Shown here: positions 1,817-44,009 of the stretch, piece after piece
Position numbering within the stretch: the stretch's first letter is position 1
Layout of the letters: every line of letters begins with the position of its first letter
Assembly: GCF_001570405.1 (NCBI RefSeq)
Contig: NZ_BBYM01000034.1
Span: forward strand, 1-64,000
Reading direction: 5' to 3'
Source: Microtetraspora niveoalba
GTDB lineage: Bacteria; Actinomycetota; Actinomycetes; Streptosporangiales; Streptosporangiaceae
Length of the DNA stretch: 64,000 nt
Position numbers and translations under genes: made by a program
Notes under the pieces: generated by a model
What the model saw: only the letters and a program-made list of their open reading frames with translations
Database searches by the model: none
What the model was told of the DNA's origin: nothing

Positions 1817-3427
1817 GTGGATCGCTGCGCGTTGTTCGTTGACGCCGGCTACCTGCTGGCGGACGGCGCGCTCGCCGCGCACGGAACCCGTCACCGAGAG
1901 TCCGTCTCCTGGGACTATCCCGGACTCCTCCAACTGCTGACCGGCCTGTCCAAGGACCGCACCGGCCTCCCGCTGCTCCGCTGCTATTGGTACGAGGCGA
2001 CGGTCGAAGGCCGCAGGACGAACGATCACGACGTGCTGGCCGACATCCCCGGGCTCAAGCTTCGCCTCGCCCGGATGCGGCCCGGTCGCCGCGAGGGCGT
2101 CGACGCGCAGGTGCATCGCGACCTGATGACGCTGGCGCGCAACAACGCCGTCTGCGACGCGGTGGTGGTCAGCGGCGACGAGGACCTGGCCCAGGTCGTC
2201 AGTGACGCGCAGGACCTCGGCATCCGGGTGACCGTCGTCCACATCGCCGTCGAGGGCGGGTGGGCGATCTCCCGCGCCCTGCGCCAGGAGTGCGACGACC
2301 TCATCGAGATCGGCGGCGCCCAGCTCATGCCGTACGCCACCCCGAACGCGGGCGCCGACGCGGCCCCCGCGCAGGCCAACGGGCAGCAGCCGGCCCTGAA
2401 CGGTCAGTCCCGGCACAACGGCTCCGGGCAGCTCGCCGGGGCGGCTACCGGCAACGGCGCGCTGAGCGGCTCCGCGAACGGCGCGTTCGCGCTCGGCGGC
2501 GGTCTGAACGGAGCCTCCGGCGGAGGCGTCCCGACGGCCGGCGCTCCGGGCACCGCCGCTTCGGGTGTCGGTGCTTCGGGGGTCGGTGCTCCGGGTGCGG
2601 ATGCTTCCGGCTCCGGTCCTTCGGGGGCCGGCGCCTCGGGTACCGGTTTTTCGCCGGGCGGTGCGTCCGGTGGCGGCAGCGTCACGCCGGCCTCGTCTCC
2701 CGCCCCCTTCTCGTCGCCCTTCTCAGGAGCCGCGCACGCCCGTCCGGCCCAGCCGGCGCTTCCCGCGTACTCGGCCTATCCGGTGGAGCCGCAGCCCGGG
2801 CAGCTTCCCGCGCCGTCGCCCATCCCGGCCCCGGCCACGTCGCCCGCCTCGTCGCCGGGCACCTCTCAGACGCCTCCACAGGTCCAGAGCCCGGCACCGG
2901 GTTCGCCCCCCGCCTCACCGCCGGCGCACGGCTCGTCCCCGGTGCAGATCTCCTCGCTCGCTCCGATCTCGCCGCCGCCGCTTCCCGCGCCCCTCTCGCC
3001 GCCGCCCGGGCAGGTGTCGCCCATACCGGGCGTCTCTCCCGCGCAGAGCCACCAGTCCGAGAGCTCGGGGAACTATTCCGGGGCGTCCGCGGGCGCCTAT
3101 CCGGCACCGGGCCCGATGCCGCTCGGGCCGTACACGGGGCCGCAGCCCACGCAGTCGCCGTCGCACAGCGCGGGCCCCACCACGACGCTCGCGGAGTCGG
3201 TGCAGTCGGCGCACAAGGAGGGGTTCGACTTCGGCGAGTCGGTCGCCCGTGACGCCCCCGTCCTGTGGCTGGAGGCGGTCCTGGCCCGCAAGCCGCGGAT
3301 GCCCTCCGACCTGGAGGCCCGGCTCCTCCAGGGCTCGTCCCTCCCGATCGACTTCCTCCTCCACGAGGAGGTCCGCCAGGCCCTCCGCCGCGGCTTCTGG
3401 GATGCGCTGGAGCGGGCGCGACGCTGA
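1817..3427 (+). CDS. NYN-domain (PIN-like) protein with long Gly/Ala/Pro linker
   Basis: The N-terminus (ALFVDAGYLLADG ... VVVSGDEDLAQVVSDAQ) is a NYN/LabA-type PIN-fold domain; the Asp residues in FVDAGY and SGDEDL are expected metal ligands of a predicted ribonuclease. It covers about residues 1-170. A disordered Gly/Ser/Ala then Pro-rich linker of ~280 residues follows, with near-collagenous triplets around bases 2540-2690. A conserved helical C-terminal domain (HKEGFDFGESVARDAP to the end) closes the protein. The GTG at 1817 is preferred over the ATG at 1790 because GGAAGGG lies 9 bases upstream and homology starts there. The stop at 3425-3427 sits inside the first unit of a 122-bp tandem repeat, so the gene end itself has been duplicated downstream. 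Biological role unknown; RNA processing is the family expectation. Confidence 0.85.
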   Translation: MDRCALFVDAGYLLADGALAAHGTRHRESVSWDYPGLLQLLTGLSKDRTGLPLLRCYWYEATVEGRRTNDHDVLADIPGLKLRLARMRPGRREGVDAQVHRDLMTLARNNAVCDAVVVSGDEDLAQVVSDAQDLGIRVTVVHIAVEGGWAISRALRQECDDLIEIGGAQLMPYATPNAGADAAPAQANGQQPALNGQSRHNGSGQLAGAATGNGALSGSANGAFALGGGLNGASGGGVPTAGAPGTAASGVGASGVGAPGADASGSGPSGAGASGTGFSPGGASGGGSVTPASSPAPFSSPFSGAAHARPAQPALPAYSAYPVEPQPGQLPAPSPIPAPATSPASSPGTSQTPPQVQSPAPGSPPASPPAHGSSPVQISSLAPISPPPLPAPLSPPPGQVSPIPGVSPAQSHQSESSGNYSGASAGAYPAPGPMPLGPYTGPQPTQSPSHSAGPTTTLAESVQSAHKEGFDFGESVARDAPVLWLEAVLARKPRMPSDLEARLLQGSSLPIDFLLHEEVRQALRRGFWDALERARR

Positions 3428-3674
3428 GCCGACCGACGAGCGAGCGGGCGACGGAGGAGTCCCGAGCGAGGACGGAGGCCAGCGGCTTCGGGCGTCTGCT
3501 CCCGCCGAGCGGAGCGAGGCTGTCGGGCACTGTGCGGGCGCGACGCTGAGCCGACCGACGAGCGAGCGGGCGACGGAGGAGTCCCGCGCGAGGACGGAGG
3601 CCGGCGGCTTCGGGCGTCTGCTCCCGCCGAGCGGAGTGAGGTTGTCGGGCACTGTGCGGGCGCGACGCTGAGCA
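3412..3674 (+). repeat. 122-bp tandem repeat spanning the NYN gene stop codon
   Basis: The string GCGGGCGCGACGCTGAGC occurs at 3412, 3534 and 3656, exactly 122 bases apart. Two full units differ at only a few positions, and the third is cut after about 18 bases. Each unit begins with a copy of the last codons and TGA of the upstream gene. The array fills the space between the NYN gene and the convergent osaB-like gene. The core resembles, in sense orientation, the repeat at 43689-44009. No convincing coding function: the unit length is not a multiple of three. Confidence 0.9.
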
Positions 3675-4347: not shown

Positions 4348-8523
<4,176 letters not shown>

Positions 8524-33324: not shown

Positions 33325-34095
33325 TTACGAGCGGCGCGGTTCCCAGCGGAACCGGCGGCTGACCACCAGCAGTGCCACGGCCGCCCAGACGCTCAGGTTC
33401 AGCAAGGGAACCACCGCGGCCCGCAGGTCTCCGCCGAACGTGCCGTCGGCGAACGCCGCCTCGCCCACCTTGACGACCGCCGCCGTCGGCAACAGGTCGA
33501 GCACGGTCGACAACCAGCCGGGGAGGAACTGGTTCATCGGCCCGAACGCCCCGGCGCCCAGTCCGGCGATCATGAAGAACGGGATGCTCATCGGGGCGGC
33601 CACCTCGGCCCGGGGGATCACCACGGTCCACGCCGCGCCGAGCAGTGTGATCACGGCCGCGCCGAGCGCCATGAAGACGGTGAGCAGCACGGGGTCGCGG
33701 GGCGCGGTGGCCGAGGTGAGGCTCACCACGGCCACGATCGCGACCAGCGCGATCAGCACGCTCTGGACCGCGATGTTGAGCAGCTCGCCGCCGAGCACCG
33801 CCGTGTCGCTCAGCCCGGCGGCGCGCAGCCGCTTGAGGATGAGCTGGTCGCGCCGGGCGGTCAGCGAGACGGCGGTCTGGTTGAACGCGCCCAGCGTGAG
33901 AGCCACCGCCAGCATGCCGAGCAACTGGGCGACGACCACCCCGGGGTCGCCGGGGCGGAGCCGGTCCATCAGCACCGGCAGGCCGACCCCGAGCCCCAGG
34001 GAGGTCATCACGGTCGCGGTCAGCGCCTGCTTGTCCCGCCAGTAGATCCGCCCGCCGAGGCGGGCGACCGCCAGAGTCTCGCGTACCTGCGTCAT
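33325..34095 (-). CDS. ABC-2 type transporter permease
   Basis: 256 residues, six predicted membrane helices (VAQLLGMLAVALTLGAFNQTAV; VLIALVAIVAVVSL; VFMALGAAVITLLGAAW; IPFFMIAGLGAGAFG; LNLSVWAAVALLVV). The pattern is that of ABC-2 exporters for drugs or lipids. The ATG overlaps the stop of the small bridge ORF (ATGA). It pairs with the ATPase at 34271-35164. Confidence 0.9.
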   Translation of the reverse strand: MTQVRETLAVARLGGRIYWRDKQALTATVMTSLGLGVGLPVLMDRLRPGDPGVVVAQLLGMLAVALTLGAFNQTAVSLTARRDQLILKRLRAAGLSDTAVLGGELLNIAVQSVLIALVAIVAVVSLTSATAPRDPVLLTVFMALGAAVITLLGAAWTVVIPRAEVAAPMSIPFFMIAGLGAGAFGPMNQFLPGWLSTVLDLLPTAAVVKVGEAAFADGTFGGDLRAAVVPLLNLSVWAAVALLVVSRRFRWEPRRS

Positions 34096-34274
34096 CGCGC
34101 ACTCTCCTCGCTCGCCGGGGTCTCGCCGGCCGCCGTCGTCATCGTCATCGCCGTCGTCATCGCCATCGTCATCGCCGTCGCCGTCGCCGTCGTCATCGCC
34201 GTCGTCATGGTCGTCGCCGTCGCCATCGCGCCGTCTCCTCGTCGCGGACGCGTGCCGGGAACCTGTGTCCTCAC
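34092..34274 (-). CDS. Low-complexity Met/Thr/Ala bridge ORF between ABC ATPase and permease
   Basis: 60 codons. The GTG overlaps the ATPase stop (GTGA) and the TGA overlaps the permease ATG (ATGA), so the ORF joins both genes with no gap. The middle ~33 residues consist only of Met, Ala and Thr, encoded by ATG/ACG/GCG triplets of a microsatellite-like tract. The flanks are ordinary polar sequence. No domain is recognised. It may be a spacer that preserves translational coupling, or a former linker of a fused ATPase-permease gene. Whether the peptide accumulates is unknown. Confidence 0.5.
   Translation of the reverse strand: MRTQVPGTRPRRGDGAMATATTMTTAMTTATATAMTMAMTTAMTMTTAAGETPASEESAR
34131..34228. 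repeat. Trinucleotide/hexanucleotide microsatellite-like tract
   Basis: On the plus strand 34131-34228 is built almost entirely of GCC, GTC and ATC triplets in irregular order, rich in GCCGTC and GTCATC hexamers. Only one triplet (ATG near 34207) breaks the pattern. All length changes by whole units keep the frame of the minus-strand bridge ORF. Confidence 0.9.
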
Positions 34275-35164
34275 GCCTTCTCCCTGCTCGCCAGGTCGAG
34301 GAACAGGTCTTCGAGCGTCGCCGTACGGACCTCCAGGCCGCGCAGCCGCAGCCCGCGCTCGCCGGCCCAGCCGAGAAGCGTCTGCGCGGCCACGTCAGGG
34401 TCGGCCACGCGGCAGATCACGGTGGCGCCCTCCACGGCCGTGACCTCCACGGGCAGGTCGCCGACCTCCACCCCGGCGGGCAGCTCGAACGCCACCCGCC
34501 CGGTCTCCGCGGCGAGCGTCTCGGCCATGCCCCCGCTCGCCACGATCGTCCCCTTGTCCATGATCGCCATCCTGGAGGCCAGACGCTGGGCCTCCTCCAG
34601 GTAGTGCGTGGTGAGCAGGACCGTCGTGCCGTGCGCCGCCAGATCCGTGACGACATCCCACGTCGCCCGGCGCGCCTCGGGGTCCATGCCCGTCGTCGGC
34701 TCGTCCAGGAAGAGCAGGTCGGGGCGGCCCAGCGTGGCCAGGGCCAGGTCGAGCCGGCGCTTCTCGCCGCCGGAGAGCTGGCGAACCTTGGTCCCCGCCT
34801 TGCCGGTCAGCCCGACCAGCTCAAGCGCCTCGGCGCGCGGGCGGGCGGCCGGGACGAGCTCCCGCCAGGAGTCGACCGTCCGCGCGACGGTCAGGTCGGG
34901 GAAGAAGCCCGCCTCCTGCAACATGATCCCCGTGCTCTTGCGCACCTTGGCCCGGTCCTTCACCGGGTCGAGGCCGAGCACCCGTACGGTCCCCCCGTCG
35001 GGGCGCTGGAACCCGGCGAGGATCTCGACCGTCGTGGTCTTGCCCGCGCCGTTCCTGCCGAGCAGGGCGAAGATCTCCCCTCGGGCGACGGAGAACGAGA
35101 TCTCCCGCACCGCTTCGAAGTCGCCGTAGCTCTTCCTGAGCCCGTCCACCTGGATCGCTGTCAT
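34271..35164 (-). CDS. ABC transporter ATP-binding protein (drug exporter type)
   Basis: 297 residues. Walker A GRNGAGKTT, Q loop MLQEAGFFPD, signature LSGGEKRRLDLALA, Walker B LLFLDEPTTGMD and H loop TTHYLEEA are all present. The C-terminal ~75 residues form the accessory domain of DrrA/CcmA-like exporters. First gene of the operon ATPase - bridge ORF - permease - kinase - regulator, divergent from the F420 oxidoreductase with a 127-base promoter region between them. Confidence 0.94.
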   Translation of the reverse strand: MTAIQVDGLRKSYGDFEAVREISFSVARGEIFALLGRNGAGKTTTVEILAGFQRPDGGTVRVLGLDPVKDRAKVRKSTGIMLQEAGFFPDLTVARTVDSWRELVPAARPRAEALELVGLTGKAGTKVRQLSGGEKRRLDLALATLGRPDLLFLDEPTTGMDPEARRATWDVVTDLAAHGTTVLLTTHYLEEAQRLASRMAIMDKGTIVASGGMAETLAAETGRVAFELPAGVEVGDLPVEVTAVEGATVICRVADPDVAAQTLLGWAGERGLRLRGLEVRTATLEDLFLDLASREKA

Positions 35165-43688: not shown

Positions 43689-44009
43689 CGCGGGCTCGGG
43701 GCGCCTTGAGGCGATGTCTTCCCTCGTCACTCGGGACTCGTTCCTCGCCCGCTCGTTCCTCAGTCCAGACACCGCCGCGCCCCTCGCGTGATGGGTTCGG
43801 CACCGTGGTGATTGATGGGGCTCGCGGGCTCGGGGCGCCTTGAGGCGATGTCTTCCCTCGTCACTCGGGACTCGTTCCTCGCCCGCTCGTTCCTCAGTCC
43901 AGACACCGCCGCGCCCCTCGCGGAGTCGCTCGTTCCTCAGTCCAGACACCGCCGCGCCCCTCGCGGAGTCGCTCGTTCCTCAGTCCAGACACCGCCGCGC
44001 CCCTCGCGG
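43689..44009 (-). repeat. Dispersed-repeat cluster between convergent genes
   Basis: A ~100-bp unit occurs at about 43689-43788 and again 134 bases later (43823-43922). Its 3' part, GCTCGTTCCTCAGTCCAGAC and the following ~20 bases, occurs twice more at 43927-43966 and 43971-44009. The whole gap between the SxxK hydrolase stop and the LysR stop is occupied. On the minus strand the repeat follows the LysR stop within a few bases. Its core (GAGCGGGCGA...GAGTCCCGAG) matches the core of the repeat at 3412-3674. Confidence 0.9.

Follow-up and report, generated by a model that had tools for sequence, protein, structure and literature searches.

Why two genes of an ABC transporter operon should be joined by a third, low-complexity reading frame that overlaps both of them is the question raised by this locus. 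Positions are counted in the window, the whole 64,000-nt stretch of Microtetraspora niveoalba DNA that was analyzed. The first-pass annotation had described a Met/Thr/Ala ORF with 4-base overlaps at both ends, and such an ORF is indeed present: its beginning shares GTGA (34274..34271) with the ATPase stop, and its end shares ATGA (34095..34092) with the permease start. A Pfam search of this bridging ORF returned no match. The permease N-terminus is conserved in four Microtetraspora relatives, and profile searches identified a HisKA_3 histidine kinase and then a LuxR-type response regulator after the two transporter genes (Table 1). An Rfam search of the junction matched no known RNA element, and a consensus scan of the junction found neither a promoter nor a terminator, the sigma-70 consensus being a weak test for actinomycetes. 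The junction RNA was less structured than all 200 of 200 shuffles (z +3.6); an RNA hairpin was rejected because the shuffles were more structured. Elsewhere, the window carries a 43-bp unit in three perfect tandem copies (2.9) at 43884-44009, apparently intergenic; a 276-bp tandem repeat (5.4 copies, 83% matches) at 6411-7913, probably inside coding sequence; and a 122-bp unit repeated 2.1 times with 97% identity at 3412-3673.

Table 1. Features of the ATPase-permease junction
Feature	Position	Strand	Description	Evidence
ABC transporter ATPase	35164..34271	minus	297 aa; C-terminal LASREKA, then stop	Pfam ABC_tran 1.5e-30
First repeat unit	34251..34295	minus	ATPase tail CCTGGCGAGCAGGGAGAAGGCGTGA and decayed permease-head copy	unit comparison
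Bridging ORF	34274..34092	minus	60 aa; 60 codons; GTG start	
Duplicated Shine-Dalgarno and start codon	34224..34240	minus	GAGGAGACGGCGCGATG	17 nt identical to NBRC 16547 permease start
(RYG)n tract	34131..34229	minus	33 codons; best 12-mer unit ATGACGACGGCG	
End of second copied unit	34096..34130	minus	permease ETLA joined to ATPase SKEKA	
Permease Shine-Dalgarno	34104..34109	minus	GAGGAG, 8 nt before permease ATG	sequence
ABC-2 type permease	34095..33325	minus	256 aa; N-terminal MTQVRETLAVARLGG	Pfam ABC2_membrane 2.9e-13

The triplet tract in the ORF is beyond chance, but the open frame itself is not. Codons 16-48 (34229..34131) are ATG, ACG or GCG in 32 of 33 cases, the exception being one ACC, and 26 triplets (34208..34131) form an uninterrupted RYG run. 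A scan of the whole 8.47-Mb genome found at least 17 consecutive RYG triplets at this single site and no site for the reversed control pattern; tracts of similar composition numbered 18, all weaker matches, and those inspected were shorter or more interrupted. The genome G002, which is probably M. glauca, contains two other long RYG tracts, GTG- and GCG-rich, at other loci. Since an RYG repeat can contain no stop in its RYG or GRY frame, the open frame alone is unremarkable. When the tract was kept and the flanks were shuffled with the phase left free, 26% of junctions had the same direct ORF and 52% had an unbroken chain of 4-nt overlaps; when the tract was shuffled too, these values were 12% and 15%. 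The RYG frame of the tract ends at the ATGA of the permease start, the YGR frame stops at a TGA overlapping an ATG that restarts in RYG, and the GRY frame is open and in frame with the permease, with no start codon. Therefore, a ribosome entering the tract in any of the three frames would reach the permease, a routing that we regard as a property of the sequence.

The same junction differs among relatives. The comparison loci retrieved belong to Microtetraspora, with one genome per species. The junction carries no insert in M. fusca or M. malaysiensis; there, the two genes share one base in a TGATG overlap, and the ATPase ends in GCGTGATGACG. Microtetraspora sp. NBRC 16547 carries one extra tandem copy of a 44-bp stretch comprising the ATPase tail, the Shine-Dalgarno sequence, the ATG and the first permease codons, and its junction GCGTGATGACGACGGTTCGCGAGACCCTGGCGATCGAGGAGACGGCGCGATGACGACGGTGCGTGAGACT thus presents the last three elements twice. 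M. glauca has two extra copies, that is, three units in a row. The window shows an M. glauca-like architecture in which the first copy has decayed and the triplet tract lies within the second. Between the ATPase stop and the permease start, 0 nt are added in M. fusca and M. malaysiensis, 43 nt in NBRC 16547, 87 nt in M. glauca and 175 nt in the window, and all three expanded junctions retain an unbroken chain of 4-nt overlaps. The first-pass annotation had held that relatives with no ORF here, or with frame-breaking lengths, would refute its reading; the former are found in M. fusca and M. malaysiensis, but no expanded junction breaks the frame. Its proposal that the tract can change length only by whole codons without breaking coupling agrees with the net expansion of 87 nt.

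Roughly 20 junctions from other members of the family were sampled, and none had the array; most of these junctions overlap or nearly touch. In one related genus, two tandem permease genes follow the ATPase, the first of which looks shortened in locus L041, so some automatically parsed junctions of that genus are uninformative. When the M. glauca array was searched against four genomes of the genus, its matches were confined to the present junction, in M. glauca and NBRC 16547, with other hits at E > 0.05, and a dispersed repeat was rejected on that basis. The expanded junctions may have one shared origin followed by loss in M. fusca and M. malaysiensis, or they may have arisen repeatedly; the species tree was built from gyrB alone, and the ATPase tree conflicts with that of the permease. 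The G002 genome also contains two full rpoB genes.

Within the window junction, the copied units are still recognizable, and their alignment to the units of the relatives beats nearly all shuffles. The first unit, approximately 1 nt longer than the 44-bp unit of the relatives, is strongly decayed. For the 45 nt before the ATG of GAGGAGACGGCGCGATG, none of 1000 shuffles aligned as well to NBRC 16547, and for the end of the second unit (GCC GGC GAG ACC CCG GCG AGC GAG GAG AGT GCG CG), no shuffle out of 1000 equaled its alignment to NBRC 16547 or to M. glauca. The distance from the window GTG to the permease ATG is accounted for by the 47 + 44 nt found in M. glauca, 1 additional nt and the net expansion of 29 triplets.

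The boundaries of the units point to their source. The heptamer CCTGGCG occurs, in one and the same codon phase, in the ATPase (D-L-A) and the permease (T-L-A). In the expanded relatives, and also in the window's last unit, CCTGGCG-like sites lie exactly 44 nt apart. The resulting hybrid mini-peptides (VMTTVRETLAIEETAR, VRTTVRETLASKERTR and MTTVGGTLTGKERTR, each ending at a stop) start like the permease and end like the ATPase, with joins at MTTVRETLA-IEETAR and VRTTVRETLA-SKERTR; the window counterpart is AGETPA-SEESAR. When the insert-free junctions were duplicated in silico from one CCTGGCG site to the other, the product was MTARETLASKENA, again ending at a stop and coupled to the permease. 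Moreover, 362 of the 1085 possible duplications spanning an insert-free junction (one third) gave an unbroken relay, so selection need not be invoked for the initial appearance of the double overlap.

Overall, we favor, with moderate confidence, the view that the bridging ORF is a tandem duplication of the ATPase-permease junction with a subsequent triplet-repeat expansion, and that it probably relays ribosomes. The duplication origin is well supported. Comparison with the relatives shows that a 44-bp segment reaching from the ATPase CCTGGCG to the permease CCTGGCG was copied in tandem. Each copy fuses the opening codons of the permease in frame with the closing codons of the ATPase, retains a Shine-Dalgarno sequence and an ATG, and terminates at a stop codon that overlaps the start codon after it. 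The ATGACGACGG in one of the copied starts then appears to have lengthened, in the lineage of the window, by 87 net nt, while a 1-nt change and the loss of an ATGA probably merged two mini-ORFs into one 60-codon ORF; the sequence of this stage is seen, and its history is our reconstruction. The best tract 12-mer, ATGACGACGGCG, resembles the permease start of the relatives, ATGACGACGGT. However, other RYG 12-mers score nearly equally (0.87 against 0.86); therefore, we infer the seeding of the expansion at ATGACGACGG mainly from position. Finally, ribosomes finishing the ATPase would re-initiate at the GTG, make an unimportant peptide and re-initiate at the permease ATG, and the insertion would thus cost little expression. 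The unusually low structure of the junction RNA counts in favor of this model.

A ribosome relay through the ORF is plausible from the arrangement of starts and stops. In published reporter work on native gene pairs, gaps of ~20-38 nt left almost no termination-reinitiation (PMC10666635), so an untranslated 175-nt spacer would uncouple the permease, whereas a continuous ORF would not. The proposal of the first-pass annotation that the ATPase and permease could be coupled through the ORF thus gains plausibility from the overlaps, the continuous frame, the GAGGAG and the relay in both other expanded junctions. The GAGGAG kept before the permease would provide a second route, making independent initiation of the permease possible.

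That second route is the one used in a rival reading, which shares the duplication origin and which we consider possible but doubtful: duplications and tract are slippage debris, the permease starts from its own Shine-Dalgarno sequence 8 nt upstream of its ATG, and the lack of stops in two frames of RYG repeats is the sole reason why the ORF is open. The quarter of flank-shuffled junctions that show the same ORF with the tract kept, and the third of simulated duplications that give a relay without selection, agree with it. Against a neutral spacer stands the relay kept in three of three expanded junctions, although this is weak evidence for selection because the three junctions may share ancestry. 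In addition, the 17 nt of the internal Shine-Dalgarno sequence and start show no difference from NBRC 16547, whereas fourfold sites of the ATPase and permease are only 73% identical between the window and that strain; this hints at constraint, as a pattern noticed post hoc.

Alternatively, the junction might be a selected regulatory device in which tract length tunes permease output and triplet slippage varies strains while coupling stays intact. A net expansion in multiples of 3, the lack of a second RYG tract of such length in the genome and the rise of the unbroken-relay chance from 15% to 52% with the tract would fit, but the tract is interrupted and degenerate, which implies less slippage, and it is absent from all four relatives; we regard this reading as improbable. 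We judge it highly unlikely that the ORF is the remnant linker of a fused ATPase-permease protein, as the first-pass annotation had also suggested. The GRY frame, encoding Asp and Gly, is open and in frame with the permease, but a fused linker was rejected because the ORF itself lies in another frame and because, between the stop at 34419 and the permease, the permease frame contains no ATG, GTG or TTG. The ATPase ends at its own TGA, the sampled family junctions consist of separate genes, and the duplicated start regions carried by the relatives contradict a former fusion.

The duplication model gives small ORFs that bridge overlapping genes a simple origin and accounts for the double 4-nt overlap without initial selection. 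Such ORFs are usually met without a history, while here 0, 1 and 2 extra copies in relatives are followed by the expansion in the window. More generally, we tentatively speculate that relay cistrons can be born by tandem duplication between in-phase microhomologies, with start triplets seeding a repeat that catches ribosomes in three frames; if true, MIRU-like elements and intergenic small ORFs could arise locally in this way. In the literature on tandem duplication with coupling, we found no description of this route. With 43, 87 or 175 nt added and the relay kept, the locus further provides a natural test of insertion tolerance at a coupled junction.

The first-pass annotation knew of no described case, yet mycobacterial MIRUs come close. 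As described in PMC12548453, which cites Supply et al. 1997, a MIRU contains a small ORF that is coupled to the following gene at -4 nt and thought to preserve downstream expression after insertion, and the senX3-regX3 intergenic region of mycobacteria holds tandem MIRU copies of 53-77 bp (PMC4213456). In both systems, a short repeated unit sits within an operon junction and contains an ORF that shares 4 nt with the start of the following gene, and the bridging ORF, if translated, would by analogy work like a MIRU. In contrast, the 44-bp unit here was copied from the very junction in which it lies, contains a triplet-repeat expansion and, at variance with the dispersal of MIRUs, is not dispersed in the four genus genomes. 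The locus also resembles the ATGA/TGATG overlapping pairs that undergo termination-reinitiation (PMC6728339, PMC10666635), with the same 4-nt and 1-nt overlaps in a transporter-subunit operon. Here, however, an extra low-complexity cistron lies between the two genes. A fused ATPase-permease transporter would have left its remnant in frame, whereas the frame of the ORF matches that of neither gene. Bacterial triplet microsatellites occur in coding sequence. The tract is likewise triplet-based and frame-keeping, but it lies in an intergenic mini-ORF and was apparently seeded by a duplicated start-codon region.
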